DNA from: a virus | Length of the DNA: 44,224 nucleotides | Reading direction: 5' to 3' (one strand) | Virus record (IMG/VR): IMGVR_UViG_3300045110_000101 | Location: 1 to 44,224 of that record | Part shown: positions 3,578-22,890 of the stretch, piece by piece | Position numbering within the stretch: the stretch's first letter is position 1 | Layout of the letters: the number at the start of each line of letters is the position of its first letter | Notes under the pieces: generated by a model | The model's input: the letters and a program-made list of their open reading frames with translations, nothing else | Database searches by the model: none | Told to the model about the DNA's origin: nothing | Made by a program: the position numbers and the translations under genes

Positions 3578-3635
3578 AACGGAGTCCAGCGGACTCGCTA
3601 CGGCGGGTAGCGCCCATTCCGAAGGTCGCACGATG

Positions 3636-3653
3636 CCCCCGAAAGGGGGTTTT
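3636..3653 (+). terminator. Rho-independent terminator after the lysis operon
   Basis: Five C, GAAA tetraloop, five G, then TTTT: a short GC hairpin followed by a T tract on the plus strand. It sits 59 bases after the amidase stop and 8 bases before the end of the convergent minus-strand gene. On the minus strand no T tract follows the stem, so it should act on rightward transcripts only. Confidence 0.75.
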
Positions 3654-3660
3654 CGTGTCT

Positions 3661-4044
3661 CTAGGAGGCGAAGTGCTCGCGGTATTCGTCGGCCTGCTGC
3701 GACCTGAACCCCGCGAGACGTAGCTGTAACTTCTCCTTGCGCTCGGGCGGGACTCTGATCGAGGTAGAGGTTCCTGCGACCTGGACGCGGATACGGGACG
3801 CTTCGTACCTGGCAAACTTCCTCTTGCCCTTCTCGGAAGCGAGGTACCTGGCTTCAGTGGCTTTGCCCTTCTCTGAGGCGTAGTACCTCGCCCGCCTTGC
3901 CTTGCCTTTCTCGGAAGCGTCGTGCCTGGCAAGCGCCGCCTTCCCCTTCTCGGAAGCGTTGTACCTGGCTTTTTTGGCCTTCTCACACTCGCGGCAGCGA
4001 CCTGGGTAGGTTTTCTCGTGTAGTCCGTTCTTGCAGAGCTTCAT
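3661..4044 (-). CDS. Small zinc-finger protein with 13-residue tandem repeats
   Basis: 127 residues. The start at 4044 is chosen because it overlaps the upstream stop (ATGA); the longer frame to 4134 reads through that gene. The N-terminus MKLCKNGLHEK...GRCRECEK has a C-x5-H...C-x2-C arrangement typical of small zinc fingers. Residues 25-80 are just over four repeats of the unit ARYxASEKGKAxx, strongly basic and probably helical. The C-terminal 45 residues (AGTSTSIRVPPE, then RLAGFRS) closely match the C-terminus of the protein at 5132-5410, so the two are paralogues. A nucleic-acid-binding role is likely; the exact function is unknown. Last gene of the leftward operon. Confidence 0.8.
   Translation of the reverse strand: MKLCKNGLHEKTYPGRCRECEKAKKARYNASEKGKAALARHDASEKGKARRARYYASEKGKATEARYLASEKGKRKFARYEASRIRVQVAGTSTSIRVPPERKEKLQLRLAGFRSQQADEYREHFAS
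3799..3970 (-). repeat. 39-bp coding tandem repeat, about 4.3 copies
   Basis: The TTCTCGG/TTCTCTG core recurs at 3830, 3869, 3908 and 3947, exactly 39 bases apart, encoding the 13-residue ARYxASEKGKA unit. The copies have diverged mostly at synonymous or spacer positions, so the peptide is conserved better than the DNA, which suggests selection on the protein repeat. Confidence 0.85.
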
Positions 4045-4280: not shown

Positions 4281-4918
4281 AGTGCCTTCCAGGTTACAGG
4301 TTCCTTGAGGATGCCCGCGTCAAGCAGCTTCTCTCGTAGTCGCTTGTGCATCACAATGTCCGACTCGCAGCGCTCGCGCACAGTCTCCCACCCGGCCTCG
4401 TCGTAGGCATCCTGCCAGTCCTGCCAGTTGAGCGCGAGCTTCTTGTCCTTGACTCCGAAGACGGCCCCGAGCACGTCCTGGCCTTTCTTGAAGCCCTTGC
4501 TGCGCGCCACCCGAATCGTGTCCTGCACGAGCACGTCGTTGATCGGTTCAAGTCCGAGTCTCATGCACTCGGCGTTGATAACCGGAAGGTCGAAGCGCAG
4601 GAGGTTGTGCCCCGTGAGCATCGTGGCGTTGCTAATGGCGTCGATGAGGGGCCAGAGCATTTGCGCCCTGCGGTTAGGATCACCGAACAGGCCCTCTGGC
4701 CCACAGATGCGTGAGTGAACCTCGTCCTCACCCACCCACGACCAGCCGACACAGGTGATCTTCTGCGGCACCCACGCCGGGTCTGCGAAGCCAGCCGCTA
4801 CCGTCTCTACGTCGAGATCAAGCACGACATGCTCAGAACGAGATACCGTTGTGGACACCGACGGGATGCGCACCGGGCGAGCGGTGTCCGGCACCCTATT
4901 CGTCGGGCGAAGTCTCAT
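4277..4918 (-). CDS. DEDD-family 3'-5' exonuclease
   Basis: 213 residues. An RNase H-like exonuclease core is visible: Exo I motif D36-V-E38 in LDLDVET, Exo II motif GHNLLRFDLP (His103, Asp110), and Exo III-like RERCESDIVMH with Asp187. The sequence QDTIRVARSKG...LALNW is also typical of polymerase-type proofreading domains. The usual catalytic Tyr (Y-x3-D) or His (H-x4-D) of Exo III is not visible; Arg183 sits at the Tyr position. No polymerase domain follows, so this is a stand-alone exonuclease. It probably acts in DNA replication, repair or host DNA degradation. The ATG follows GGTGAG and overlaps the upstream gene by 23 bases. Confidence 0.8.
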   Translation of the reverse strand: MRLRPTNRVPDTARPVRIPSVSTTVSRSEHVVLDLDVETVAAGFADPAWVPQKITCVGWSWVGEDEVHSRICGPEGLFGDPNRRAQMLWPLIDAISNATMLTGHNLLRFDLPVINAECMRLGLEPINDVLVQDTIRVARSKGFKKGQDVLGAVFGVKDKKLALNWQDWQDAYDEAGWETVRERCESDIVMHKRLREKLLDAGILKEPVTWKAL

Positions 4919-5132
4919 CGCTCACCGTGACGTGGATGATGCTCTCGGCTGCGTCTGCGGCGCTGGATTCGATCTCCAACCGCACCTTGCCAGACAGGAG
5001 CGCTTCGGCCTCGGGATTGATTACGTCCTCCATGAAGTCGATGTACTCGAACTGCTGCTTGAGCCTGAACTGCGCTCTGCGTGCGGCAAGCCACTTCTTC
5101 ATCTCGCGTGATTGGCGAGTCGAACCGGCCAT
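4896..5132 (-). CDS. Hypothetical protein, 78 residues
   Basis: Unrecognised. The first half is basic and helical (KKWLAARRAQFRLKQQFEY); the second half is acidic (EIESSAADAAESII...SDETSPDE). Its ATG overlaps the upstream stop by one base (TAATG) after GAGGG. The bipolar charge and place between a zinc-finger gene and an exonuclease fit a small nucleic-acid or protein-interaction factor, but nothing more specific can be said. Confidence 0.65.
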   Translation of the reverse strand: MAGSTRQSREMKKWLAARRAQFRLKQQFEYIDFMEDVINPEAEALLSGKVRLEIESSAADAAESIIHVTVSDETSPDE

Positions 5133-5410
5133 TAGGCCCTCCCCTGTAAGAATGGTCGTGTCGAGCGAAACTCGGCAAGCCGACCGAGAAGTTCACCCCG
5201 ATGCTCGGGGGGAACCTGAATAGACGTGCTCGTGCCAGCGCACCTCACCTGGATGCGCTTCGCATCGTACTTCGCCCGTGTCTCCCGGCGCTTGCGCGTG
5301 GCGTTGTACTTCATGTTCGACGCCCTGCGACACGCCCGACACTTCGCTCTTCCGACGGTGAGCAGGTTGTCACCAACGAGGTCGTGCAGATCGTTCTGAC
5401 ACCTCTTCAT
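5132..5410 (-). CDS. Small zinc-finger protein, paralogue of the 3661-4044 product
   Basis: 92 residues with a very strong GGAGGGAGG site. The N-terminus MKRCQNDLH...GRAKCRACRR has the same C-x4-5-H...C-x2-C zinc-finger plan as the 3661-4044 protein. The C-terminus (AGTSTSIQVPPE, RLAEFRS) is nearly identical to it. The middle keeps only one or two degenerate repeat units (MKYNATRKRRETRAKYDAKR). The two are therefore diverged duplicates that differ by expansion of the central repeat. Basic and probably nucleic-acid-binding. Confidence 0.8.
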   Translation of the reverse strand: MKRCQNDLHDLVGDNLLTVGRAKCRACRRASNMKYNATRKRRETRAKYDAKRIQVRCAGTSTSIQVPPEHRGELLGRLAEFRSTRPFLQGRA

Positions 5411-5433
5411 ACAACCTCCCTCCGCAGTTTAGG

Positions 5434-5461
5434 GGCGGGCAGGCCCGTAGGCCCACCCGCC
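5434..5461 (-). other. Stable hairpin with UACG tetraloop upstream of zinc-finger gene
   Basis: On the minus strand a 12-pair stem (two G-U pairs) closes a C(UACG)G loop, one of the most stable tetraloop classes. No T tract follows, so it is not a standard terminator. It lies between the 27-residue membrane peptide gene and the strong ribosome binding site of the 5132-5410 gene. It could stabilise the mRNA or insulate translation. Confidence 0.6.
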
Positions 5462-5476
5462 ACGCCGACGCCGGGG

Positions 5477-5560
5477 TCAGGTGCCCCAGGATGCGCCGAG
5501 CGCCATCGCAAATGCAACCGCGGTTCCGAGAACCGCGTAGAACAGAACCTTGTTCGTCAT
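5477..5560 (-). CDS. 27-residue hydrophobic peptide
   Basis: A short reading frame with an excellent GGGAGGTAAGC-ATG start. After MTNK the peptide is one hydrophobic helix (VLFYAVLGTAVAFAMALGA) ending in SWGT. It could be a single-pass membrane micropeptide. Nothing else fills the space between 5410 and 5601. Translation is supported by the binding site and codon choice only. Confidence 0.55.
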   Translation of the reverse strand: MTNKVLFYAVLGTAVAFAMALGASWGT

Positions 5561-5600
5561 GCTTACCTCCCTCCCGTCGAATCACGTTTACAGAATAGCA

Positions 5601-5942
5601 TCAGGTGCGGGAACTTCTTGAGTCAAGGTCTTCGATCCACGCAACTGCTACGGCGATGACGTGGGTCAGTTCTTCTCGCAGCGTCTCCTCAGTCGGCGCT
5701 GCGTAGGCTTCCGACACCTCCTCTTCGAGTATGGTCTGCCAACTCCCGTTGCCAGCGGCGAAGAAGAACTCGCACCTATACCGCTCGAATGTGGCCCTAG
5801 TCTCGAAGTCTCGGCGCAGAATCGAGGAGGGATGTTCGCCAGCGGCCGTTCCGTTGGCGTGATGCTGCTCGCCCCACTTATCCTCTTGCCGCAGGCGCTC
5901 GGATTCGATGTGCAGGTAGATGAGATCGCGGTCAGCGGTCAT
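5601..5942 (-). CDS. MazG-like nucleotide pyrophosphohydrolase family protein
   Basis: 113 residues. The start at 5942 overlaps the upstream stop (ATGA). Features of the short phage MazG-like family are present: ESERLRQEDKWGEQ near the N-terminus, then GSWQTILEEEVSEA (the helix carrying paired acidic residues that bind metal in all-alpha NTP pyrophosphatases) and REELTHVIAVAVAWIEDLDSR. Family members hydrolyse nucleoside triphosphates to monophosphates and may alter nucleotide pools or alarmone levels in infection. The neighbour is also a nucleotide-metabolism family protein. Confidence 0.75.
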   Translation of the reverse strand: MTADRDLIYLHIESERLRQEDKWGEQHHANGTAAGEHPSSILRRDFETRATFERYRCEFFFAAGNGSWQTILEEEVSEAYAAPTEETLREELTHVIAVAVAWIEDLDSRSSRT

Positions 5943-6358
5943 TGTGTTGTTTTTCCTTCCTCGTAGAGCACCCGAGCGATGAGTGCATACACCGCTATGT
6001 CCATGAAGGAGTCGATTGCCGACTCGTTGTGAAGCTCGCCGTTGCGTGCGAGTGCCTGTAGGCGCTTCACCTTGTCGTTCAGGCGGATCATCGCCCCGAC
6101 CCATCCCTCTACACCGAACTCGGCGGTGCTGCGCACGTTCGCGAACGGGTCATCGCTCTTCCCGTAGTCACGCTGCTTCTTCGCGTGCAGCAAGCCCGCG
6201 CTGATGAGGTGGTCGTAGAACTTTCGGCTGCTCGGGTGTGCGTCCTCCGAGTTGAGAATCGCCTCGAAGAGATGGAAGCTCGCAGCCGTCGCGGGTGGCG
6301 CGGGTGGCGCGGGTTCCCGCGCCCCGCAATCGCAGTTTGCACATGCTGGATTGACCAT
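5939..6358 (-). CDS. DUF1599-like nucleotide-metabolism/modification associated protein
   Basis: 139 residues from ATG 6358 (AGCAGGTAAG upstream). A longer frame to 6427 exists, but its extra codons (AGG, AGA, CTA, TTG) are unlike the rest, so I prefer the shorter start. A Cys cluster (CANCDC) and a Pro-Ala linker come first. The main domain reads DYGKSDDPFANVR, then FGVEGWVGAMIRLNDKVKRLQ and ESAIDSFMDIAVYALI. This matches DUF1599/nucleotide-modification-associated phage proteins, an all-alpha fold related to MazG. Its metabolic substrate is unknown. Confidence 0.65.
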   Translation of the reverse strand: MVNPACANCDCGAREPAPPAPPATAASFHLFEAILNSEDAHPSSRKFYDHLISAGLLHAKKQRDYGKSDDPFANVRSTAEFGVEGWVGAMIRLNDKVKRLQALARNGELHNESAIDSFMDIAVYALIARVLYEEGKTTQ

Positions 6359-6407
6359 CTTACCTGCTCGTAGACAGAGGATTCTAGGATCGTCACTCAG
6401 TTCCAAC

Positions 6408-8072
6408 CTAATCCCATCCTTCATCACTCAAGTCCTCCCATACGTCCGGCCCGCCCATCGTCGGCAAGCGCTCGTCAATGGGCGCTGAGTACACGCCCCC
6501 GGTGGAGTACAACTGCGTGCTGCGGTCGAAGTTCAGAAGCTCGATGTGTCCCGCCTGATCCTTCGTGCTCGTCGTGTGCCGGTTCTTGAGCACGCGGTAC
6601 TGCGAGGCGTCACCCTGGTACTGCAAGCCCTCCTGATCGCGCTGACGCCAGATGGCGAACGCGATGCTCGCCTCGTTGCCGAGCACCTCCGTCTCGCGGA
6701 AGTCCTGCAACACGGGCGGCGGGTAGCTCACCATGTCCTTCCCGCGCTGATACCGGCGAAGCTGGCAGAGCACGAGCATGGGGATGTTGGCGTCGAGTGT
6801 GACGTTCGTGAGCGTCTTGATCTGCTCCTCGAAGTTGCGCCGGTCACCGAAGCCGAGCCGGTGGATGTGATCGAGTACGACAAACTCATACTCCCGGTCG
6901 AACACTTCCTCGACCAGCCGCTCCACCTTGAGGTGGGTGTCGTAGATGATCTCCAGCCTCCAGTCCCTCATCTCTTCGAGCGCGAGGTGGTACAGGGCCA
7001 ACATCTCCGGGTCTTGCTTGAGGAGCCACGGCTGCTCTAGGAGCCGCAGCGGCACGCCCTTGTGCGAGATGAGGCGGTTGCGCAGATCGGCCTCGCTCAT
7101 CTCCATCGTGAAGTACCCGACCTTGACGCCCTGCTCGCAGATCGCTCTCGTGCCCTGTAGCGCGATGGTGGTCTTCCCGTCTCCGGTATAGGCACCTCCT
7201 GCGTAGAGACGCCCCTGGCGCATGACAGACCCCTCTACGCCCTTCACAAGCTCGTACCCTGGCAAGTCACTAGGCCGAAACTGCAAGTGCTCCAAACCGG
7301 CCTCGACCATCTCGGTGATGGTGATGATGCCGCGCTTCGGCGTCTTACGGGGACGCATGAAATCCGCGAGGGTGAATCCAGCATCGAAGTGGTCGCTGGC
7401 ATCCTTGCCCTGCTTGGCCTGGAGCACTTGCACCGGCACGCCGACAGAGGTAAGGGCTTCCTTGATCTTCTCTGCGTGACGCCTACCGGGGTCGTCTCGG
7501 TCTTGAATGATGATGACGCTCTTCGCGCCGATGAAGTGCCCCGTGTACTCAGGACGCCACTTGCCCGCGCCCATCGGGTTGCACGTCGCGAAGACGCCTG
7601 TCTCCTGAGAGAAGCGCAGGGCATCCTTCTCGCCCTCTACGAGCACGATGGTATGCCCCTCGCTCACGGCGGCTCGAAGCTCGGGCAGCCTAAACGGGAC
7701 ACGCCGAACGCCGTCCAAGTCCCATTGAACCTCGCCCTCTTCGTTGACGTGGCGCTGGCGGAAACGCTTGCCTGGCATCCTCACGGCCTCGAAGAGCACC
7801 GTTCCATTTTCGTCGTGGTAGGGGTAGATGGCGTCCGGTTCTGTGTCGTTCGAGTAGGAGGTGGGGAACAGGTCGCGCATACGCAACCCCATCGCCTCGA
7901 CCACATCCTTGACCATGCACCCGGCGTAGCAGTTGAGCAGCACGCGCCCGTCGTCGCCCTCCGTGATCCCGAGAGACGCTTCCTTGTCCTCGTGCGCAGG
8001 ACACACACCGACGAAGCCGTTGCCTCCCGTATGCACGCCCTCGATGCGCTCAAGGAACTCATCGAATGTCAT
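6408..8072 (-). CDS. Primase-helicase (T7 gp4-like: zinc finger, Toprim, DnaB-type ATPase)
   Basis: 554 residues. An N-terminal zinc-binding module (C24-x2-H27...C48-x3-C52) is followed by a Toprim domain with VEGEKDA and QDRDDPG acidic motifs. A RecA/DnaB-like helicase core follows, with Walker A GGAYTGDGKTT near residue 295, Walker B-like FVVLDHIH near 400, and the sensor region LVLCQLRRYQRG. The protein should synthesise primers and unwind DNA at the phage fork, as in T7. It is the central replication gene of the leftward operon. The ATG overlaps the upstream stop (ATGA) and is preceded by GGTGG. Confidence 0.92.
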   Translation of the reverse strand: MTFDEFLERIEGVHTGGNGFVGVCPAHEDKEASLGITEGDDGRVLLNCYAGCMVKDVVEAMGLRMRDLFPTSYSNDTEPDAIYPYHDENGTVLFEAVRMPGKRFRQRHVNEEGEVQWDLDGVRRVPFRLPELRAAVSEGHTIVLVEGEKDALRFSQETGVFATCNPMGAGKWRPEYTGHFIGAKSVIIIQDRDDPGRRHAEKIKEALTSVGVPVQVLQAKQGKDASDHFDAGFTLADFMRPRKTPKRGIITITEMVEAGLEHLQFRPSDLPGYELVKGVEGSVMRQGRLYAGGAYTGDGKTTIALQGTRAICEQGVKVGYFTMEMSEADLRNRLISHKGVPLRLLEQPWLLKQDPEMLALYHLALEEMRDWRLEIIYDTHLKVERLVEEVFDREYEFVVLDHIHRLGFGDRRNFEEQIKTLTNVTLDANIPMLVLCQLRRYQRGKDMVSYPPPVLQDFRETEVLGNEASIAFAIWRQRDQEGLQYQGDASQYRVLKNRHTTSTKDQAGHIELLNFDRSTQLYSTGGVYSAPIDERLPTMGGPDVWEDLSDEGWD

Positions 8073-8665
8073 GCCGCCACCCGCGAGCGGGCAGCTTTCG
8101 AGTTGAGTCGATGGTACCGACGACGTGCCTCTTCACGCTTACACTCGCGACAGATCGACTTACCAGTCTTCGGAGAGATGTAGGTGTGCTCTGAGCGCGG
8201 GTGTCCGCGACGGCAGACCATGGACGAATACTTGATCTTTTCAGGACGCTCGGAGTCCGGAGTGACGCTGCACTCGTGCGAACAGAAGTGACGAATCGGA
8301 TCGCCGTCCGCCACCTCACCGATATCGAATACGGACGTGCAGCCCTGGCGAGCACACTGGACGATGCGTAGGTTCACGTTCTCGTAGTAGTCGCGTAGCT
8401 CGGTGTGCCACAGTTCCCACAGGTTCATGGCGCAGAGCAGCCGGTCGGCGTCATTGAACGAGAGCGACTTGATCGTGCGCTTGCCCAGGTAGGTCAGGAG
8501 CGTCTGATCTGAGATACCTGCGCGGAACGCGATGTGGTACGCCTCACCTTGCTGAGTGTCCGACTTGTCCTTGTCCGCACGGGCGCATTCACGCTTGACC
8601 AACTCCAGGATCGGGGCTGCGGGAATCCTGCCCCGTTGCAGTATCAGAGCTTCGTCCTGTGTCAT
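8069..8665 (-). CDS. Putative DNA-binding regulator with two zinc-binding modules
   Basis: 198 residues from ATG 8665, chosen for its GGGAGGTCAAA site. Residues 45-85 (AFRAGISDQTLLTYLGKRTIKSLSFNDADRLL) look like a helix-turn-helix. Two Cys-rich modules follow: C-x4-C ... H-F-C-x3-C, and a C-terminal CRRGHPR...CREC finger whose end (EARRRYHRLNSKA) is basic. The last module resembles the zinc fingers at 3661-4044 and 5132-5410. It overlaps the resolvase gene by 77 bases. A transcriptional or replication regulator is likely; the target is unknown. Confidence 0.65.
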   Translation of the reverse strand: MTQDEALILQRGRIPAAPILELVKRECARADKDKSDTQQGEAYHIAFRAGISDQTLLTYLGKRTIKSLSFNDADRLLCAMNLWELWHTELRDYYENVNLRIVQCARQGCTSVFDIGEVADGDPIRHFCSHECSVTPDSERPEKIKYSSMVCRRGHPRSEHTYISPKTGKSICRECKREEARRRYHRLNSKAARSRVAA

Positions 8666-9083
8666 TTTGACCTCCCGTAAGGTCGATGATGGTGATATCG
8701 GCATACGCCTGATCGTCGTAAAGCTTGCGCACGTTCCAGTGAACGATTTGAGAATCGTCGCGCATGACGACGCCGGTCAGAGAGTCACCGATAGCACGTT
8801 GTAGTTTGTCAGTATCTGGCTTGCCCTGCTTGTAGAAGGGATGATCGTCGCGCAGGAGGTGTGCATTCTTCCCCGTGCGAAAATGAGACTTCGGGCGCGG
8901 AAGCGCGAATGTCACGCGCACGCTCACCGGGCCGAGAAGGATGGGGGTGTCTCCCCATTCCTCCCCGACCACTTGTGAGACGTGACCGCGCCACGGACGT
9001 GTCTTCGGGTTCGCCTCTCCACCCCACGGATTCTTCGATCCCTGCGGGATGGGGGCGCCCATGACGAGGACGCGGAAGTACAT
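8589..9083 (-). CDS. rusA: RusA-family Holliday junction resolvase
   Basis: 164 residues. The RusA signature is clear: GKPDTDKL (Asp90 and Asp92) and GVVMRDDSQI (Asp109/110), equivalent to the three catalytic aspartates of E. coli RusA, plus the typical N-terminal strand with PIPQGSKN. The enzyme cuts four-way DNA junctions made in recombination or replication and may help prepare concatemers for packaging. The last 25 residues extend beyond the core and are low-complexity. The start overlaps the upstream stop by one base (TGATG). Confidence 0.88.
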   Translation of the reverse strand: MYFRVLVMGAPIPQGSKNPWGGEANPKTRPWRGHVSQVVGEEWGDTPILLGPVSVRVTFALPRPKSHFRTGKNAHLLRDDHPFYKQGKPDTDKLQRAIGDSLTGVVMRDDSQIVHWNVRKLYDDQAYADITIIDLTGGQNDTGRSSDTATGQDSRSPDPGVGQA

Positions 9084-9727
9084 CAGTTCAGGCTCGCGTC
9101 CTGATGCAGAGGATCGTCACCGACTGAGAACAGCTCGCGCAAGTCCTCGGAGGCTTCCATCGTCTGCTTGAGCCGGTCAGAGCGAGCCCGCGCACGCGCC
9201 TTGTGCGCGTCCATGATCGCCTGCTCTTCCTCAGGAGTTGCCTCTAGGGGGATCGAGGAGGTGATCGCTGTGATGAGCGTGGTCACGTTCGGGCGCAAGT
9301 TCGGCACGAGAGTACCGAGCACCTGGAGCGCAAGGATCGCGAGCGGGCCGTTCTCGATATCGAGCTTGACCGTACCCTCCAACGAGCCGCGAGGGAACCC
9401 GTACTCGTACAGGCTCTCGATGTTGCTGATGTACCCGATGCCCTCCTGTGCGAGTCCAGCGAGCACGTCGAGCGTTGATTCACCGTTCTCCAGCCTCCAC
9501 CACGAGAGAGCTACGCCGATCTGCTCGAACTCTTCGTCATGGCCCTGCCCGCCGTGGACGCGCTGAAACTGCGCCTCGGCCTCTGTGGCGAACTCGTCGT
9601 ACTGAGCTTGCAGTTCCGCGTTGGCGAACTGCGTGGCGGCGATGCTCTCGTCGTTCTCCGAGTTGGCGCTCGACTCGTCCTCGAACGGTGCTGCGTAGAC
9701 CTGTGCGTCTTCGTCTTCCGGTGTCAC
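9083..9727 (-). CDS. Hypothetical acidic protein, 214 residues
   Basis: GTG start with GGGAGGTGCAGA. Unrecognised. The N-terminal 30 residues are very acidic (EDEDAQ, FEDESSANSENDES). A mixed helical region follows, including GISYISNIESLYEYG-like text (actual: GIGYISNIESLYEYG) and a hydrophobic segment (LAILALQVLGTLVPNL). The C-terminus is a charged helix (DAHKARARARSDRLKQ). It lies between recombination genes, so a role in DNA metabolism or as an accessory to the resolvase is plausible. Confidence 0.7.
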   Translation of the reverse strand: MTPEDEDAQVYAAPFEDESSANSENDESIAATQFANAELQAQYDEFATEAEAQFQRVHGGQGHDEEFEQIGVALSWWRLENGESTLDVLAGLAQEGIGYISNIESLYEYGFPRGSLEGTVKLDIENGPLAILALQVLGTLVPNLRPNVTTLITAITSSIPLEATPEEEQAIMDAHKARARARSDRLKQTMEASEDLRELFSVGDDPLHQDASLN

Positions 9728-9784
9728 TCTGCACCTCCCGATGCTGTCACTTTCAGTGTACCTGAACTTTCGGTATCCGGTCGG

Positions 9785-10450
9785 CTACGAGAGCAGCCAG
9801 TCGTGCCACGCAGCGATGGTCGCCTCGTAGACGGGAATCTTGTCCGCCTCCGAGTACAACTCCATGTCGATGAGCTTCGAGCGCACGCGCTCCAGGTGCT
9901 CATCCCACACCTCGCCGCCGTTCTCGGCGTCGTCGGGCACGCGGATCGAGATGGTGCGCCGCTTGCGCCGAGCTTCGCCCTTGAGGCGACTGCGCTTCGC
10001 CTTGCTCTTCGTAGCTCCGGGCTGCGGGTTCAACTCACCGATCTCGACGTAGGTGTCGGGAACACCAAGCTGCTCGGGGTCGATGTTGTCGAGATCGAGC
10101 CACACCCAGGTGCCACTTTCGAGCTTGCACCAAGAGAGGTGTGCCTCGACGTTATCGTGATGCTCCCGGCACAGGCCGATACAGTGCGGGATCGGGGCGG
10201 ACACGAAGCCCACCCCGAGCACTTCGGTCACGCTCGGGTTCTTCCCGAGCACGGCAACTGCGTCTTCCCACGAGTCGAACGTGATCGACACGAAGTAGGA
10301 GTCACCGCCGATTGCGCTGCGCGGGAACGAGTGATGCGGGTCGGCTACCTCGTTCGTGCAGTCCGGGTGTGCGCACACCGCGTTCATCGGGTACGTCTCG
10401 GCTGCTACCGCGACGACGCGCCGATTCTCGATTGGCTTGAGTGCTGTCAT
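9785..10450 (-). CDS. HNH-like zinc-binding protein (putative nuclease)
   Basis: 221 residues. Residues 24-110 have an HNH-type layout: C-x4-C (CAHPDC), then DPHHSFPRSAIGG, and later CIGLCREHHDNVEAH, i.e. a beta-beta-alpha metal motif with its His pair in HHSF and the C-x3-C-x2-HH knuckle. A basic middle (KSKAKRSRLKGEARRKRR) could bind DNA. It sits inside the replication operon joined by ATGA to its upstream gene, so it is more likely a replication or recombination nuclease than an inserted homing enzyme. Confidence 0.7.
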   Translation of the reverse strand: MTALKPIENRRVVAVAAETYPMNAVCAHPDCTNEVADPHHSFPRSAIGGDSYFVSITFDSWEDAVAVLGKNPSVTEVLGVGFVSAPIPHCIGLCREHHDNVEAHLSWCKLESGTWVWLDLDNIDPEQLGVPDTYVEIGELNPQPGATKSKAKRSRLKGEARRKRRTISIRVPDDAENGGEVWDEHLERVRSKLIDMELYSEADKIPVYEATIAAWHDWLLS

Positions 10451-10665
10451 GCCGATGCCACCCCCGATCCGATCTGACTCGGCCCGTCTGTCTCTCTGAT
10501 CCTGGCGAACAGTTCCTCCACCGGATCGTAGTCGGACAGGCTGGACAATCCCGAGAGATCGAGCTTCCAGAGCGCCGACTGCACAGTCGCACCAGCCGCG
10601 CGCACGCCGCTCGAAGTCTCGACTACGACCTGTCCGAAGTTCTCGGTGATGACGAGTCGCCTCAT
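10447..10665 (-). CDS. Hypothetical protein, 72 residues
   Basis: The start at 10665 overlaps the upstream stop (ATGA) and the stop overlaps the next start, so it lies in a coupled chain; the longer frame upstream is a shadow of the secreted protein gene. It begins with beta-like MRRLVITENFGQVVVE, then an acidic helix (DYDPVEELFARIRETD). No known family recognised. Confidence 0.65.
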   Translation of the reverse strand: MRRLVITENFGQVVVETSSGVRAAGATVQSALWKLDLSGLSSLSDYDPVEELFARIRETDGPSQIGSGVASA

Positions 10666-11003
10666 TGGGCCGTCACGTTGATCTGCGTCGAGCCGGGGCA
10701 CGAGCGGTTCGAAGTGGCCGAGCACCGTTGTCCGAGCGTGAGCACGACCGCGTATACGCCGGGAGTCGGGAACGTGAAGGTCACGACGGGTGTGTTGCCG
10801 AGTGTCGCGCCGAGCCGGTTCGTGTTCGCGCCGTAGTAGCGCCACGAGTACGCGCATCCGAACGGGCACGGGTTGCGCGTCGCGTCGAACGTGAACGTGG
10901 ACGGCCCGACCTGTGTCGCGGTCGCGGTCGGCGCGTCGAGCGCCGTTGCGGACGATGCGAATACGCCCAGGACGATGACGACAAGCACGATCAACTTCTT
11001 CAT
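10662..11003 (-). CDS. Secreted small protein with PKD-like domain
   Basis: 113 residues. A classical signal peptide is present (MKK, 15 hydrophobic residues, cleavage near SSATA). The rest resembles a PKD/Ig-like beta sandwich: FTFDATRN, SWRYYGANTN, then FTFPTPGVYAVVLTL and a closing strand INVTAQ. Four Cys residues could form two disulfides. PKD domains usually mediate binding at cell or virion surfaces. Finding a secreted protein within a replication operon is unusual; roles such as superinfection exclusion or cell-surface alteration are guesses. GAGGAGG lies before the ATG, which overlaps the upstream TAA. Confidence 0.7.
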   Translation of the reverse strand: MKKLIVLVVIVLGVFASSATALDAPTATATQVGPSTFTFDATRNPCPFGCAYSWRYYGANTNRLGATLGNTPVVTFTFPTPGVYAVVLTLGQRCSATSNRSCPGSTQINVTAQ

Positions 11004-11995
11004 TACAGAACCTCCTCGGTTCGTTTGACTGCCCGGTAGCTCCGCAGGATAGCGAGGAAGTCCTCATAGGTCGCCTGCGCGTGCCGGAACTGATACAGGC
11101 CGTGCGCCGAGATGTGGAGCACCGCCCTCATGTTGGTCGGGTCGTATCCATCCTCGATGCCAGCACCCTCGTAGCCCTCTAACTGTAGGAGGTGCGAAGC
11201 GTAGATCGACTTGCTCGTCTTCGCGTCCACGAGGAGCCTCGTGCCCTTCTTCACCGTGAAGCTCTCAGGGCCTTTCGCGAGCCGCGACTTACCATCTTTG
11301 GTAAGGCAGCGCGTGACGAGGTTCACGTCCTTTGTGACGCGCCCTCGAAGGTCATAGCGCCCTGCGAACCCGTGCTCGTAGGAGCCGACGGCCACCTCGA
11401 TGCCCTCCGTCTCCCACGCATCGCCCATGTCGTCGCAGAACTTGCGCAAGCCCGCGATGTAGTCCACCTCGTCGGGAGGGAACTCCTCGGGGTCGGGTAG
11501 CTTGCCGAGCGCCGCCCACGACTCAAGGGCACCATGCACGGACGTACCACGCTCGCCCGCCGTGCTCAGTGTGTCGTTCACCGTGAGCGCGAGTTGCTTG
11601 ACTACCTGCTCGATGTTCCCGCCATCACGCGGGTCTGCGAACTGCCACACCGCGCCCTCGGTAACGAGAAGGCGTCCATTCTCGCCGGTCGTGAGGTAGC
11701 CGCGATCCCATAGCTCCTTCACCGCCTTGATCCCCACACGCATCCCCCACCACGAGAGCGCGTCCTTCGACAACACCCCGAGAGCCGTGGTAACGCTGAT
11801 GGCCTCCTTCCATCCCTCGGGGGTGTAGACGATCTCGCTCGTCGGCTCGATGTTGCGAATCGCGTAGCGCCGCTTGTCGGCAGACCGTGGCTTGCCGTCT
11901 CCCGGCCAGTACGCGATCTCGATGCCGGACGGCGTGCGCGTAAGCGTGCGCGGATCGTCCGCGTAGGGATCGAACGGTGGCTTCTTCGCCGCCAT
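11003..11995 (-). CDS. Cas4/RecB-like PD-(D/E)XK exonuclease
   Basis: 330 residues from ATG 11995 (GAGGACA upstream, TAATG overlap). The PD-(D/E)XK signature is seen in order: GTSVHGALESW (conserved His and Glu helix), FAGRYDLRGRV (catalytic Asp), LLVDAKTSKS (D-x-K), and HLLQLEGYEGAG (QxxxY motif). This matches the phage Cas4/RecB-type nucleases that resect DNA ends for recombination. The first 90 residues are specific to the phage and contain DRRYAIR-like basic strands. It follows an SSB-like gene, consistent with a recombination module. Confidence 0.85.
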   Translation of the reverse strand: MAAKKPPFDPYADDPRTLTRTPSGIEIAYWPGDGKPRSADKRRYAIRNIEPTSEIVYTPEGWKEAISVTTALGVLSKDALSWWGMRVGIKAVKELWDRGYLTTGENGRLLVTEGAVWQFADPRDGGNIEQVVKQLALTVNDTLSTAGERGTSVHGALESWAALGKLPDPEEFPPDEVDYIAGLRKFCDDMGDAWETEGIEVAVGSYEHGFAGRYDLRGRVTKDVNLVTRCLTKDGKSRLAKGPESFTVKKGTRLLVDAKTSKSIYASHLLQLEGYEGAGIEDGYDPTNMRAVLHISAHGLYQFRHAQATYEDFLAILRSYRAVKRTEEVL

Positions 11996-14138: not shown

Positions 14139-14726
14139 TCAACAAGCACCTCCTACCTCGAACGCGATAGCGTTGTGCCACCAGAGCGCGTAGGTGAGCG
14201 TGGACAGGTACAGGGGATTGCTCGTGGTCTTCACGACGCGCCTGTACGTCTTCGTCTTGCCGATGCGCACGAATGATGCGACCCTGATCGTCGCCGGTAC
14301 TCCGAGCTTCGGCAGCCAACCGGGCATGATCGCGATGGCTTGACAGTCAGCCTGATGCTCGTCTCGCACGCCGAGTTGGTGCGTGCTCTCGTGCAGGATG
14401 GTCTTGACTGCGAGCGCCATCCACACTGGCCCGATCTGCGACGGCGGTAGGCCGTTCTCGATCATCTCCAGTGTGTCGCACACTCGCGGTGACAGGTAGA
14501 TGATGTTCGACCTACCGATGAACGTGAACCCGTCGGCGTCGTTTGTGAGCAGCGCCAGCGCCTCTGTCTTCGACCAGTCGGTAGCCGTCTGCGCACACTG
14601 AACGGTCACAGGATGCCCTGCGACGGCGGTAGCGATCACGTCGAGACGTGGGTCGCCGTAGTTTGCGGCCTGGGCCTGACTCGCGAATACGAGCGCGAGC
14701 ACACAGGCCGCAATGAGCTTGCGCAT
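14139..14726 (-). CDS. Secreted putative zinc metalloprotease-like protein
   Basis: 195 residues. A clear signal peptide is present (MRKLIAACVLALVFASQAQA). Residues 118-134 read HESTHQLGVRDEHQADC, which contains HExxH and extends to HExxHxxGxx(D/E), the zinc-binding pattern of zincin-type peptidases. The remainder is unusual: several Cys pairs and a hydrophobic segment before the motif (MALAVKTIL). An exported protease or protease-derived binding protein from an early phage operon is uncommon. A copy of the two-hairpin element lies immediately upstream and covers its ribosome binding site. Catalytic activity is inferred from the motif only. Confidence 0.65.
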   Translation of the reverse strand: MRKLIAACVLALVFASQAQAANYGDPRLDVIATAVAGHPVTVQCAQTATDWSKTEALALLTNDADGFTFIGRSNIIYLSPRVCDTLEMIENGLPPSQIGPVWMALAVKTILHESTHQLGVRDEHQADCQAIAIMPGWLPKLGVPATIRVASFVRIGKTKTYRRVVKTTSNPLYLSTLTYALWWHNAIAFEVGGAC

Positions 14727-14796
14727 GATTCCCTCCTTCGTCAGTGCTACGGGATTGCAGCACTAGGAGGGGGCGCGTGAACGCCCCTACCTGCTA
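14727..14796 (-). promoter_or_regulatory. Two-hairpin start-associated RNA element, copy 1
   Basis: Reading leftward: TAG (stop of the upstream 40-residue gene), hairpin 1 (14770-14787; 7 pairs, loop TCAC), CCTCCT (14765-14770), hairpin 2 (14743-14764; 8 pairs, loop AATCCC), then AGGAGG (14732-14737) and the ATG of the metalloprotease-like gene. CCTCCT can pair with AGGAGG, enclosing hairpin 2 and hiding the ribosome binding site. Confidence 0.8.
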
Positions 14797-14916
14797 CTGC
14801 CACTCCGTCACCTCCCGCTTGCGACCGCCTGGGATGTTCGTCCAGCCTGGGTGCTGATCGCGCCCCTGGTGGACTGCGCCGAGCTTGATCGGCTTCTTCG
14901 GCTTCGACTTCTTCAT
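14794..14916 (-). CDS. Small basic protein, 40 residues
   Basis: ATG 14916 overlaps the upstream stop (ATGA), and its TAG stop is the first triplet of element copy 1. The N-terminus is a Lys-rich tail (MKKSKPKKPIKLG); the rest contains HQGRDQHPGWTNIPGG and ends in EVTEWQ. Unrecognised. The tight coupling on one side and the element on the other support it as a real gene. Confidence 0.65.
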   Translation of the reverse strand: MKKSKPKKPIKLGAVHQGRDQHPGWTNIPGGRKREVTEWQ

Positions 14917-15122
14917 GCTGAAAGTGCTTCGAGCACGAGGTTGTAGGGATCGTTCTCGACGGGTGCCTGCCTGATTGCGAAGGCGAACTCTTCCGACAGG
15001 AATCTCGCGAGTCGGAACGCTGAGATCAACTCGCGGAGCTTCGACTCGGTGAACGTGAGGGTGAGAGTGATCTCCACCTCGCGCTCGACCGGATCGACTG
15101 GCTTGATTCTTGCCTCGATCAT
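14913..15122 (-). CDS. Hypothetical protein, 69 residues
   Basis: Start at 15122 follows AGGAGGAAAGAC of element copy 2. The first 25 residues are beta-like and alternately charged (IEARIKPVDPVEREVEITLTL). The rest is helical (ESKLRELISAFRLARFLSEEF). Unrecognised. It is the first gene of a two-gene unit under one copy of the element. Confidence 0.65.
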   Translation of the reverse strand: MIEARIKPVDPVEREVEITLTLTFTESKLRELISAFRLARFLSEEFAFAIRQAPVENDPYNLVLEALSA

Positions 15123-15191
15123 GTCTTTCCTCCTTCGTCTCAGTACGCGGTGGCGCACTAGGAAGGGCTGCTCTCGCAGCCCAACCTGCTA
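15123..15191 (-). promoter_or_regulatory. Two-hairpin start-associated RNA element, copy 2
   Basis: TAG at 15189-15191 is the stop codon of the DUF932 gene. Hairpin 1 (15165-15182) has 7 pairs and a GAGA loop. The anti-binding-site segment here is TTCCT (15160-15164), which still pairs with AGGAG through one G-U pair. Hairpin 2 (15142-15159) has 7 pairs with loop CACC. AGGAGG lies at 15129-15134. Confidence 0.8.
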
Positions 15192-16187
15192 CGCAGCGGC
15201 CAGTTCGAGGATCGTGCGCTTGAGCGACGCTTTTGCTGGGTTGTCAGACAGAAGCGTGCGCTTCACATACGAGTCCTTCGAGCGGTACGCCCGGAGGTGG
15301 TCGAAGTATTCGACGCCCGCCAGGTGAAGCCCGTATCCCGTGAGGGTGTGAACCTCGGGAACGGTGTTACCGAAGAAGAGCGCGTTGATTTTGGCACGCT
15401 CGGCCTCGATGTTGTTCTTCACGCGGTCGCTCGTCGCGGCGTTGCTGGAGAGCACGCCGTCCCGATCTCCAATGATGGTGCTCACGAAGAGATCACGCTG
15501 CTCGGGGGTGACCTTGAGCGCGGCCAGTTCCTCCATCGCAGCGATGTAGACGCCGTGATTGGCGCGCACGCCCTGAATGGTCTTCTTCGCCTCGTTGATC
15601 CTGTCCATCACATTCTTCGTGTGACGGAAGACGAAGTTGGTACCGAGCCTCTGGCCCTCGGCCTCGGACGCGCTCACGGTGTTCTCGCACACCTGACGTA
15701 CCGATGTGGAGCGCACTGAGAAGGACGCCGTGCCGTCGTGCGCCCACGACAAGCCTGCGTAGGGCAGCGTGGTCGAGTTGTCGCCAGTGATGACGACAGG
15801 CTCGTTCAGGAGCAGCGTCAGGTAGCACTGAGCGCCACCGTTCAGCGTGCCGCCCGTCTCGAAGAGGAAGCCCTCTTCAAGCAGAGCCTCTGCCACGTCG
15901 TAGGGAACGTGGTTGGGGATGCGCTCGAACGAGTCCGAGCCGATGCGCAACGTCGCGCCGTTGTCCGACCGGAAGTGCTCGACGTACCCATCGACCTGAG
16001 TCCAGGCGAGGTTGCCGAGAGCGTTGCGCCGCAGGATCGCGACGGGCCGCTCGGCCACATCCCAATCGTGCCCTGCCGCTACCATCGCGGCTTCCCGGCC
16101 AGGGTAGTCGGCCAGGACGTACTCCGATTTGTTGTCCCACCATGCCGGAACGCGCACGGTGAACGACTGCTCGGGGATTGCACCCAT
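15189..16187 (-). CDS. DUF932 / TIGR03299 phage-plasmid-like protein
   Basis: 332 residues from ATG 16187. The start of the family is recognisable (the WDVAERPVAILRRNALG region and the later DSFERIPNHVPYDVAEALLEEGFLFETGGTLNGG), as are the DNSTTLPYAGLSWAHDGTASFSVRSTSVRQVCENTV block and RHTKNVMDRINEAK. These are hallmarks of the DUF932/TIGR03299 proteins widespread in actinobacterial and other phages and plasmids, whose function is unknown (an RNA- or replication-linked role is often suspected). Element copies lie both upstream of its start and at its stop codon. Confidence 0.85.
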   Translation of the reverse strand: MGAIPEQSFTVRVPAWWDNKSEYVLADYPGREAAMVAAGHDWDVAERPVAILRRNALGNLAWTQVDGYVEHFRSDNGATLRIGSDSFERIPNHVPYDVAEALLEEGFLFETGGTLNGGAQCYLTLLLNEPVVITGDNSTTLPYAGLSWAHDGTASFSVRSTSVRQVCENTVSASEAEGQRLGTNFVFRHTKNVMDRINEAKKTIQGVRANHGVYIAAMEELAALKVTPEQRDLFVSTIIGDRDGVLSSNAATSDRVKNNIEAERAKINALFFGNTVPEVHTLTGYGLHLAGVEYFDHLRAYRSKDSYVKRTLLSDNPAKASLKRTILELAAA

Positions 16188-16261
16188 GATTCTGTCCTCC
16201 TTCGTGTAGTACGTCAGGATTGACGCACTAGGAGGGGCAGCTTGCGCTGCCCTACCTGCTA
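16188..16261 (-). promoter_or_regulatory. Two-hairpin start-associated RNA element, copy 3
   Basis: Hairpin 1 (16235-16252): 7 pairs with a GCAA (GNRA) loop. CCTCCT occupies 16230-16235. Hairpin 2 (16208-16229): 9 pairs, loop ATCC. AGGAGG lies at 16196-16201 before the DUF932 start. Here the leading TAG (16259-16261) comes 2 bases after the TGA stop of the upstream gene rather than being that stop. Confidence 0.8.
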
Positions 16262-16263
16262 CG

Positions 16264-16482
16264 TCAGCGACCGTCTTCCAGAAGACCCTCAGCTTCGAGC
16301 GCGAGCCTGATCTCCTCCGCAGCTTCGAGCGCGAGCCTGATCTCCGAGAACGTGCGAGCACGCGCCTGAGCCTTCGTCAGATCGTGGGTCTTCTTGAGCA
16401 GCGCGCGCGTCGAGCTCGGCTTACCGTCCCACGAGTCGCCAGCGCCATTTGCGATGGTCGGGCGTCCGTCTGTGTTCACCAT
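16264..16482 (-). CDS. Hypothetical protein, 72 residues, with duplicated helix
   Basis: ATG 16482 follows AGGAGGATCATC. The first half is polar (PTIANGAGDSWDGKPSS); the second half is helical and contains a duplicated 10-residue unit EIRLALEAAE, encoded by a 30-base tandem repeat. Unrecognised. Its size and place between two element copies parallel its neighbours. Confidence 0.65.
   Translation of the reverse strand: MVNTDGRPTIANGAGDSWDGKPSSTRALLKKTHDLTKAQARARTFSEIRLALEAAEEIRLALEAEGLLEDGR
16291..16350 (-). repeat. 30-bp coding tandem duplication
   Basis: Two adjacent 30-base units share their first 25 bases exactly (AGCTTCGAGCGCGAGCCTGA and on). The near-identity indicates a recent in-frame duplication that adds ten residues to the helix of the 16264-16482 product. 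Confidence 0.9.
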
Positions 16483-16556
16483 GATGATCCTCCTTCGTTG
16501 ACAGTGCCGATGATTCGACACTAGGAGGGGCTGGCCGAAGCCAGCCCTACCTACTA
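16483..16556 (-). promoter_or_regulatory. Two-hairpin start-associated RNA element, copy 4
   Basis: TAG at 16554-16556 is the stop of the upstream gene. Hairpin 1 (16528-16547): 8 pairs with a C(TTCG)G loop. CCTCCT occupies 16523-16528. Hairpin 2 (16503-16522): 8 pairs, loop ATCA, one G-U pair. AGGAGG lies at 16489-16494. Confidence 0.8.
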
Positions 16557-16769
16557 CCGAATACCGAGCTTCTCGCACCTCTGCGGGCCGAGATAGAGCG
16601 CCGGGTGATTGAACGCATCGAGGAGATCGCTCTTCTCGGTCGTGACGAAGAACTCAGCCTCACTCGTGCGCACCGCGATCCCGGTCAGATCAACGGAGGG
16701 CAGGTAGAGCGCGTCCACCGTGATACCGCCCGTAGAGCGCGTCAGGAGCGCGTTGGGGTGCTCAGACAT
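16554..16769 (-). CDS. Hypothetical protein, 71 residues, first gene of leftward accessory operon
   Basis: ATG 16769 follows the ACGAAGGAGGAAAG binding site, the same sequence used after the elements; a longer frame to 16967 reads noncoding-looking sequence. Beta-rich middle (ALYLPSVDLTGIAVRTSEAEFFVTT) and a C-terminal segment with HPALYLGPQRCEKLG. Unrecognised; probably transcribed from a promoter in 16770-17049. Confidence 0.65.
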   Translation of the reverse strand: MSEHPNALLTRSTGGITVDALYLPSVDLTGIAVRTSEAEFFVTTEKSDLLDAFNHPALYLGPQRCEKLGIR

Positions 16770-17049
16770 GGTCTTTCCTCCTTCGTTGTCCGTAGGTGGA
16801 CGAGGGCAGGCAGGATTGCCGCGCCTCCATGAACCGTCGATGCTCCCGCACGGGATCACCCGGAGTAGGGCAGCGCCCGTTACGACCGAATCGTCCACGG
16901 GGCAGATGGCCTGCCGAGCAGGCCGTGCTGCGCAGTTACGAGCGCGTTTCGATTCTGACGCGCTCATGGTCGGCGCAGGCTCTTACGCTCGCACCGACGG
17001 CTCATGGAGACGCCCGATTGCTCGGACGCCTCGCACGAAGGAAGGAGGG
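16770..17049. other. Divergent intergenic region with a perfect hairpin
   Basis: About 280 bases between divergent operons with no convincing gene. It contains a perfect 7-pair hairpin at 16908-16924 (GGCCTGC-CGA-GCAGGCC). Next to the leftward gene lies GTCC-ACCTAC-GGAC before the AACGAAGGAGG site, which looks like a decayed hairpin 2 of the two-hairpin element. Promoters for both directions are expected here, but I cannot place them. Confidence 0.45.
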
Positions 17050-21408: not shown

Positions 21409-22890
21409 TTGCGGCACAGTGACGTGACGGCGGTGCTCGTCACCAGAAACGCCTCGGAAAACCCTCACTTCGACGCGATCCTCGACAGCGTTGCTCATTA
21501 CCGGGGTGTCTACGTCTACGACAACTCGAAGCGCTTGGTTGACCTCAAGGTCTATGGTCGCTACGAAGCCGCAGATCGCTCCGTTACGACGCCGGTAGTT
21601 TACTTTCAGGACGACGACGTGCTCGTGCCTCGCAAGGCTCAGGACGCCCTGCTTGAGAACTACGCTCCCGGCGTCATCACTTGCTCGATGTATGACGAGT
21701 GGATCGAGAGCATGAGTTACACAGACCTGGCGATGGTCGGGTTGGGGTCGATTCAGGACAACGGTCTGTGGTTGAAGGCTTTTGAGCGGTGGGCGAATGG
21801 CTACTCGTGGTTGGATAGTGACCGCGAGCTACTTGACCCGGACTTCATCTACGGAGTCCTGACCCCGTTCAATCGCCTGGACGTGGGCGGCAAGGATCAC
21901 ATCCTTGACCTCGCTTCTGATCCGTCGCGCCTCGCGTACCAACCGGGGCAGCACGAGCGGAAGTACGAGACGATCAACATGGCTCGCGAGCTTCGCACGG
22001 TGGTCTGCACGATCATGGCGAAGAACGAGTCAGAGAACATTCGTCGGGCACTCGACTCGACTAAGGACGTGTACGACTCGATTCTTCTTCTCGACACCGG
22101 CTCGACCGACGACACGATTGCGGTCGTGGAGACGTTTGCCGGGGCGCACGGGAAGCACCTTACGATAATCGAGCATGAGTTCACGACGTTTCAGGAGATG
22201 CGTAATCTCCTCATGCAGAAGGGCCGAAAGCTCGGAGACTATCAACTCCTCCTCGACGCAGATGAGGAGTGGACGCCCTGCAAGCGCTCGGACTTTGGGC
22301 CGCTGTGGGCGGACGGGTACATGATGCACTACGACGGCAACGTGGACTACGGGCAGCCACGTCTCATCGCTTCGCGATGGCCCTGGGTCTTCTCGGGCGA
22401 GCGGCACTCGTATCTCGATACGGAACACCCCACGTTTCAGGCCGTCGTCGTAAACATGCATCACCCGCGCATCATTCATCACGGCGATGACCGTCATGGG
22501 ATGAGCAAAGTAACGGAGGATATTGCTTGGTTGAAAGAGCAGATCGCCAGCACAACAGACGATTTGCCTCGAAACCTTTTCTTGCTTGGAAAAGCCTACG
22601 ACTTTGGAAACGACAACGAGCAGGCGATGAAGTATTACGCCGAGCGCGTCGAACTCAGCACCGGGGATGAAGAGTCCTATTGGTGCAAGTATCGTCTTGG
22701 TTGCCTCACATGCGAAGTCGCCAACGACATGAGAACTGGAATCGCCTTGCTGTGGGAGGCGTACCAGGACAGACCACATCGCGTGGAAGCACTACGCGCC
22801 GTGGCTTTTTACTGTACGGCGGTGGCAGACGCGACGCCGTACCCCGAAGACGACTACTTGCTCGTCATGCGGAATATGTACCGCATCTGA
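21409..22890 (+). CDS. Glycosyltransferase with two GT domains
   Basis: 493 residues from TTG 21409 right after the previous stop. Domain 1 (about residues 1-190) begins VTAVLVTRNASENPHFDAILDSV and has a DXD-like QDDDVLVP motif. Domain 2 (about 195-330) is a classical GT2 domain: TVVCTIMAKNESENIRRALDS, LLLDTGSTDDT, and LLLDADEEW with the metal-binding DxD. A helical TPR-like tail follows (LFLLGKAYDFGNDNEQAMKYYAERVEL). GT2 enzymes transfer sugars from nucleotide donors. It may glycosylate virion proteins or DNA, or alter host surface glycans; none of these is shown. Confidence 0.85.
   Translation: MRHSDVTAVLVTRNASENPHFDAILDSVAHYRGVYVYDNSKRLVDLKVYGRYEAADRSVTTPVVYFQDDDVLVPRKAQDALLENYAPGVITCSMYDEWIESMSYTDLAMVGLGSIQDNGLWLKAFERWANGYSWLDSDRELLDPDFIYGVLTPFNRLDVGGKDHILDLASDPSRLAYQPGQHERKYETINMARELRTVVCTIMAKNESENIRRALDSTKDVYDSILLLDTGSTDDTIAVVETFAGAHGKHLTIIEHEFTTFQEMRNLLMQKGRKLGDYQLLLDADEEWTPCKRSDFGPLWADGYMMHYDGNVDYGQPRLIASRWPWVFSGERHSYLDTEHPTFQAVVVNMHHPRIIHHGDDRHGMSKVTEDIAWLKEQIASTTDDLPRNLFLLGKAYDFGNDNEQAMKYYAERVELSTGDEESYWCKYRLGCLTCEVANDMRTGIALLWEAYQDRPHRVEALRAVAFYCTAVADATPYPEDDYLLVMRNMYRI

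Follow-up and report, generated by a model that had tools for sequence, protein, structure and literature searches.

Reports of repeated sequences in front of phage start codons (SAS/ESAS, CR) go back to 2011 and assign no function to them. The start-associated sequence (SAS) of the cluster K mycobacteriophages is a fixed 13-bp sequence, GGGATAGGAGCCC, located next to the start codon, and the ESAS is a 17-bp inverted repeat whose arms, according to the authors, do not support RNA pairing (PMC3203893). Both in cluster K and in Microbacterium cluster EF (PMC7302621), these sequences are present in multiple copies just before start codons, as is the element that we describe here. The cluster M mycobacteriophages carry conserved repeats between many of their right-end genes; two of these, CR3 and CR4, are preceded by stem-loops, and the genome announcement mentions stem-loops only (PMC7953290). 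Intergenic start-associated repeats with stem-loops are thus an already known kind of sequence in actinobacteriophages (PMC3203893, PMC7302621, PMC7953290).

Translational coupling by mRNA unfolding is known from the f1 genes VII/IX and from rpmI-rplT of E. coli (+52 nt) (PMC12548453). In these systems, as in the switch that we propose, the upstream ribosome alters the structure near the next start across a gap of similar length; they are, however, single-locus structures masking the ribosome binding site (RBS), whereas the element studied here is a portable helix-exchange module without general RBS masking. In attenuation leaders, again as in the proposed switch, the position of a ribosome picks between two mutually exclusive helices, but the element possesses neither a U-tract terminator nor a leader peptide, and it is found at internal junctions, one per gene.

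The DNA under study, referred to as the window, is the complete 44,224-base stretch of an uncultured virus record (IMGVR_UViG_3300045110_000101) with terminase, portal and primase-helicase genes. The kinship with the start-associated sequences of cluster K that an earlier note on this DNA had pointed to is one of idea and not of sequence: at three mismatches, GGGATAGGAGCCC has 8 matches in the window against 12.5 expected by chance, and none of them is located at the Shine-Dalgarno (SD) sequence of the genes in question. In the element, unlike in SAS/ESAS, it is the pairing and not the sequence that is conserved, and the upstream stop codon is part of the element; its arms vary with compensatory changes, whereas the ESAS is conserved in sequence. 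In the literature covered, which is mostly open-access and has the original cluster M paper outside it, we found no description of the stop-codon helix exchange, its covariation or its spread.

The four copies in the window

The earlier note had described four minus-strand intergenic stretches (14727-14796, 15123-15191, 16188-16261 and 16483-16556) as copies of a two-hairpin element, and all of them are present, with the stems claimed, CCTCCT (TTCCT in copy 2), TAGTG and ACGAAGGAGG. CCTAGTG followed by CGAAGGAGG occurs four times on the minus strand of the window, and zero times both on the other strand and for a reversed control pattern. When compared with dinucleotide shuffles, the four copies have folding z-scores of -2.3, -3.0, -4.1 and -3.9. 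The minimum free energy fold of the isolated elements is one long hairpin, not two separate ones; in it, the partner of the left arm of hairpin 2 is a stretch of 5-7 nt before or overlapping TAG. The copy at 15191 is the sole window copy that prefers the two-hairpin state once longer flanks are included. Since the best fold joins bases of the TAG region to the left arm of hairpin 2, three strands, rather than two, need to be tested. The two-hairpin layout is only partly right: the best fold is a long hairpin in which the end of the upstream gene is paired with strand B; strand A at the stop codon constitutes a third strand that had been missed. The TAG of the proposed TAG(C/T)AGGT opening is present as well, but the in-frame stop of the copy at 16261 is a TGA located five bases before it.

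Copy 1 (14743..14802, minus strand as all coordinates of the copies and their genes below, measured from A to the end of hairpin 2) consists of A (14802-14795), which pairs with B, the P1 strands (5' at 14792-14790, 3' at 14767-14765), the P2 hairpin (14787-14770) and the B/C hairpin P3 (14764-14743). Its SD, CGAAGGAGG (14740-14732), precedes the ATG at 14726 of a gene for 195 amino acids (14139..14726; no Pfam family), whose product exhibits a signal-peptide-like N-terminal stretch and, with ILHESTHQLG, a zinc-peptidase-like HExxH motif. Copy 2 (15142..15197), the seed of the covariance model R1, is built from A (15197-15190), P1 (15187-15185 / 15162-15160), P2 (15182-15165) and P3 (15159-15142), followed by the SD (15137-15129) and the ATG at 15122 of a small gene (69 aa, 14913..15122; no Pfam family). 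In copy 3 (16208..16267), A (16267-16260) includes the upstream TGA stop at -5, and P1 (16257-16255 / 16232-16230), P2 (16252-16235), P3 (16229-16208) and the SD (16204-16196) lead to the ATG at 16187 of a DUF932 gene (332 aa, 15189..16187; PF06067, E=8.8e-30) that lies between copies 3 and 2. Copy 4 (16503..16562), with A (16562-16555), P1 (16552-16550 / 16525-16523), P2 (16547-16528), P3 (16522-16503), the SD (16497-16489) and a start ATG at 16482, is separated from copy 3 by a small gene of 72 aa (16264..16482; no Pfam family). This copy, at 16556, reads TAGTAG and gains a U-A pair where the other window copies have a C x A mismatch.

Two simple interpretations were rejected. Stop-codon readthrough does not fit, as TAG is not the in-frame stop at 16261 and in many other copies, and 16556 has a TAGTAG. 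A U-tract terminator does not fit either: a search for intrinsic terminators defined as a G+C hairpin plus a T-run, a definition that leaves terminators without a U-tract aside, returned none at any window copy. A fifth ACGAAGGAGG is present at 16777-16785 (minus strand) before an ATG at about 16769, without the full element; the gene starting there looks like the first gene of the run. Elsewhere in the window (21409-22890, plus strand), a beta-1,4-glycosyltransferase-like protein is encoded (PHROG, E=2.7e-15).

Relatives, covariation and position at gene junctions

The DUF932 gene led to six related contigs, the closest relative (68% identity) being encoded on IMGVR_UViG_3300036760_000253 (L042, G001), where the element is found on both sides of that gene. 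Further contigs were gathered via degenerate patterns; a first covariance model, built without A:B information, added pattern-free copies, and a descriptor scan contributed a few last ones. As the descriptor was loose and gave many chance hits, its hits were taken by eye only when they had conserved context beside stop and start; most of the last eleven copies were thus selected for pairing, and the decisive statistics leave those out. The total set comprises 51 copies in about 18 uncultured phage contigs, and by protein content the carriers fall into eight or more lineages whose proteins show little similarity to each other, if any. In two filamentous phages (L099/L107), the element is located before the gene for the major coat protein (PHROG major capsid, E = 1.5e-19); it is absent from the named inoviruses with the closest coat proteins and is hence lineage-specific in these two phages. 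Contig L102 holds at least eight copies within 6.5 kb (4847-11293), at many junctions of a small-gene operon, and almost all of them have an SD of the CAGGGAGG type. Within one phage, linker and SD do not vary, but they do so between phages.

Searches in general collections yielded little. The exact core CCTAGTG...ACGAAGGAGG occurs in 37 stretches of IMG/VR, none of them with the element; blastn with the region, one element and related loci returned no related match among 50,697 phage records; and a protein and pattern search of genome contigs gave one chance match and nothing else. No Rfam 15 family exceeds its gathering cut-off in the window, and for 2.1 kb around the copies plus seven related loci only sub-threshold matches were obtained, with nothing credible at relaxed thresholds. 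The DUF932 phages L043-L047 lack the element and have other intergenic hairpins with R1 scores that are marginal at best. In one of them, L046 (IMGVR_UViG_3300005937_000086), the gap behind the DUF932 gene forms two hairpins, with CGTGCTGCC-aatccc-GGCAACACG preceding ACAGGGAGGG; it may be a diverged relative and was left out of the 51-copy set.

The consensus derived from the collection reads A (6 nt) - UAGC - N G S - UA - P2 hairpin - CU - S' C N', continued directly by the 3' half, RGUR n6 (B) - loop - YACY (C) - linker - SD. Strand A, the stop-codon region in which the upstream gene ends, pairs with B, the left arm of hairpin 2, and C, located before the SD, competes with A for this strand. 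Both A:B and B:C are preserved through compensatory changes, including changes that involve all three strands. The compensatory base changes claimed in the earlier note, for which four copies alone are too few as proof of covariation, are borne out by the 51-copy collection, in which pairing across the wider homologues is significant against shuffles.

A:B pairs at 114/162 positions, compared with 73.3 (sd 5.4) when the A strands are dealt among the copies (z = 7.5), and this peak is present only at the true register, with z <= 2.1 for the other registers from -4 to +4. In a set of 38 copies, the count is 157/228 versus 102.4 (sd 6.3), and in 11 copies that were found without any A:B criterion it is 43/66 versus 30.2 (sd 3.7, p = 2e-4). 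For B:C, the total contiguous stem amounts to 161 against 123 (sd 6.1) in shuffles that were given the same best-of search as the real copies, and none of 3000 shuffles reaches it. A count over 48 copies finds 83.2% of cells paired in state I (the A:B hairpin) versus 60.1 in shuffles and 27-43% in slid registers; as the C strand of this set was picked for pairing, the fair test of B:C is the comparison of 161 with 123. The B:C helix is weak in a single copy, L091 18025.

At one position, the three strands covary as A-U-A (30 copies), U-A-U (7) and A-U-G (4). The first pair of hairpin 2 is G-C in 32, A-U in 6 and G-U in 3 copies; that of P1 (NGS:S'CN') is A-U in 16, G-C in 16, C-G in 8 and G-U in one, and at the other P1 pairs both G-C and C-G occur. 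Sequences of P0, P1 and P2 vary freely, and that of the internal loop is not conserved. A:B contains a G.G mismatch, between the G of TAG and a G of B, in 39/41 copies (one of the two exceptions is register-shifted), and the site of this mismatch is a G-C pair in B:C.

The position of the element with respect to the neighboring genes is narrowly defined. In 44/51 copies, the distance from the upstream stop to the TAG position downstream of it is 0-10 nt, the stop being either TAG itself or a TGA, TAA or TAG just before it, and the nearest assigned stop is at least 14 nt before the element in the other 7/51. The next start is found at +65 to +86 in 45/49 copies. Three copies of L096 (G013; 4008, 3652 and 5064) are located behind a stop codon with the next start 150-214 nt off and further hairpins in the gap; at 3274-3900 and 5064 of this contig, one or two more strong hairpins stand between the element and the following start, which gives the impression of a gap occupied by structure throughout. 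The predicted energies of state I and of state II (B:C) are nearly equal, with a median ddG(II-I) of 1.7 kcal/mol and 24/40 copies within 3, values that are rough since longer-range pairs are included. Predicted SD accessibility is nearly the same in both states (medians 0.45 and 0.50). What the earlier note had put forward as a covarying structured RNA at gene junctions with two exclusive states is supported, but not the hiding of AGGAGG by CCTCCT as its switch.

Gaps of the cluster M mycobacteriophages fold likewise: a strand A at the stop codon pairs with B, and hairpin 2 is the alternative. Over 48 gaps from five phages, which are related to each other so that the copies are not independent, the longest A:B helices sum to 253 versus 206.5 (sd 6.5), with a maximum of 226 in 1000 shuffles; at least five Watson-Crick pairs over the stop are present in 24/51 gaps versus 9.8 (sd 2.4), with a maximum of 17 in 2000 shuffles. 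Strand B tracks the identity of the stop codon, with ATTCAG or ACTCAG for TGA, GCTTAG for TAA and CTAG-containing strands (TGCCTAG or ATCTAG) for TAG. The CR3/CR4 repeats resemble the element in being intergenic, in occurring in many copies in a small-gene operon, and in the order of hairpin(s) and then a conserved SD. The SD regions differ, however (ACGAAGGAGG in the window, CACACGGAGAAGGG in cluster M), and B is often the loop plus right arm of hairpin 2 in cluster M, whereas it is the left arm in the element; this comparison is based on the SD region and on R1. R1 finds nothing better than E=4 in the cluster M phage Estes. The likeness may reflect either homology or convergence.

A proposed helix exchange at the stop codon and its alternatives

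Two helices, their conservation, their mutual exclusivity, their near-equal predicted energies and their fixed position relative to stop and start are established at the level of sequence. As in attenuation, two exclusive conserved helices share a strand, and one partner is located where the upstream ribosome terminates. We consider it moderately probable that the element is a cis-acting three-strand helix switch, set between the stop of one gene and the start of the next and gated by the terminating ribosome. The core hairpin (P1 and P2) would always form. In state I, B would pair with A, the roughly 8 nt that lie at the upstream stop or overlap it, to give one long hairpin with the conserved G.G mismatch; in state II, B would pair with C, just before the SD, to give hairpin 2. 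State I is predicted to be slightly favoured at rest. A ribosome at one of the close-lying stops (44/51 copies) covers, by its footprint, strand A in all of them; it would thereby release B, so that B:C forms, and the element would report termination of the upstream gene to the initiation region of the downstream gene.

That the terminating ribosome drives this exchange we infer from the arrangement of the strands, and coupling or tuning of downstream translation is our best guess for its effect. State II would pack the gap of 65-86 nt into two abutting hairpins and bring the SD near the terminating ribosome; since predicted SD accessibility is alike in both states, we favor reinitiation or distance over unmasking as a guess. 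Random-library work in E. coli, as cited in PMC12548453, links structure just after the stop codon to weaker coupling, a finding that counts against the coupling explanation.

The strongest competitor, although we regard it as unlikely, is an mRNA processing or stability signal like the intergenic RNase III sites of phage T7, which, as does the element, form irregular hairpins between phage genes. State I, an irregular hairpin of about 20 bp, would be cut on one side of the internal loop; the upstream message would then be protected at its 3' end by P2, and B, no longer held by A, would re-pair with C into a 5'-terminal hairpin protecting the downstream message. This scheme accounts for the keeping of both A:B and B:C and for the copies with distant starts, and state I is indeed a long irregular hairpin, usually with a 2x2 internal loop, at gene junctions. 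It predicts, however, neither the locking of A to the stop nor the tracking of stop identity by B in cluster M, and the internal loop sequence is not conserved. No exclusive B:C alternative or stop-codon lock is known for the T7 sites. A DNA-level origin without selection on RNA, either by quasi-palindrome correction (template switching) or by homologous shuffling of copies, is very improbable in our view: copies within a genome share linker and SD, and boundary repeats could aid gene shuffling, but pairing is limited to fixed positions and one register with the mismatch preserved at a single site, the element keeps its position relative to the stop and the start on the sense strand, and joint changes of the three strands are seen in phages that are unrelated.

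Sequestration of AGGAGG by CCTCCT, the switch that the earlier note had predicted to hide the RBS, is improbable as the general function. With the 5' half occluded by a modelled ribosome, the main setting in which such pairing is predicted, CTCCU/CTCCC:SD pairing reaches at least 0.7 in about half of the copies (above 0.7 in three of the four copies in the window), whereas values close to zero are obtained for others; one phage group, whose members are related to each other, may keep such pairing (CTCCC with GGGAGG). The SD complementarity is lost, however, in the copies with CTGCT, CTCCG, GGU or GGC, in which A:B, P1, B:C and the SD are all retained. The conservation of CCTCCT is explained by its last CCT, which is the P1 partner of the AGG behind the stop codon. 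Changes in P1 are accompanied by changes in CCTCCT (CTGCT, CTCCG, TTCCC, CTGGT, CTGGC), but not by changes in the SD; in L042 (G001), the change from CCTCCT to CCTGCT is matched precisely by one from TAGCAGG to TAGCAGC, as expected for pairing with the upstream strand, and it disrupts the pairing with the SD. Sibling copies of a single genome, L089 (G009; 7023 and 8250 versus 7785, 6285 and 6039), differ in P1 (CCU, GGU or GGC), yet share one SD (CACAAGGAGG) and keep A:B, P1 and B:C. This loss in siblings, together with the three copies that have no near start, indicates that RBS hiding is not the conserved function; at most, individual phages may use it in addition. Copies of the window type are candidates for this, as a ribosome that also melts P1 could allow CCTCCT to pair additionally with the SD. 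About as improbable is a binding site for a phage or host protein, or a put-like antitermination signal, with the long hairpin as the site and B:C as the unbound form. The adjoining hairpins of the HK022 put RNA offer a likeness, and the G.G mismatch persists in 39/41 copies although the flanking pairs change; but P0, P1 and P2 are free to vary in sequence, and the mismatch can equally be explained as tuning A:B such that C can compete. As the carrier phages share little or no protein similarity, there is no common candidate protein.

Returning to the ribosome-gated helix switch, the sequence data point to the choice between two helices, one of them holding the upstream stop, as the trait under selection, and not to a sequence. 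If the switch operates as proposed, it would represent a termination sensor used gene by gene along an operon, and a small natural building block with which neighboring genes could be coupled. Only tentatively do we extend this to a general and portable class of phage RNA switches that sense termination, in which a strand would evolve to match the upstream stop context and each terminating ribosome would reset the structure before the following gene. Its carriers would include uncultured tailed phages and filamentous phages as well as cultured mycobacteriophages, and at least some of the start-associated repeats of actinobacteriophages that lack an explanation would be accounted for. The cluster M phages and their host Mycobacterium smegmatis mc2 155, grown in teaching laboratories, offer a concrete and cheap testing ground.

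In the named Rhodococcus, Streptomyces and Microbacterium phages, R1 scores are marginal at best and other intergenic hairpins are present. The gaps of Rhodococcus phage CoffeeBean (L120) have a uniform AACGAACGGAGCAAGGCA-like sequence before many starts and long hairpins after stops, an SAS-like set. In Streptomyces phage Squillium (L121), a recurrent hairpin of the GGGCCC-TTCGG type is positioned right after stops, followed by CCCCGGACA and an AT-richer stretch.
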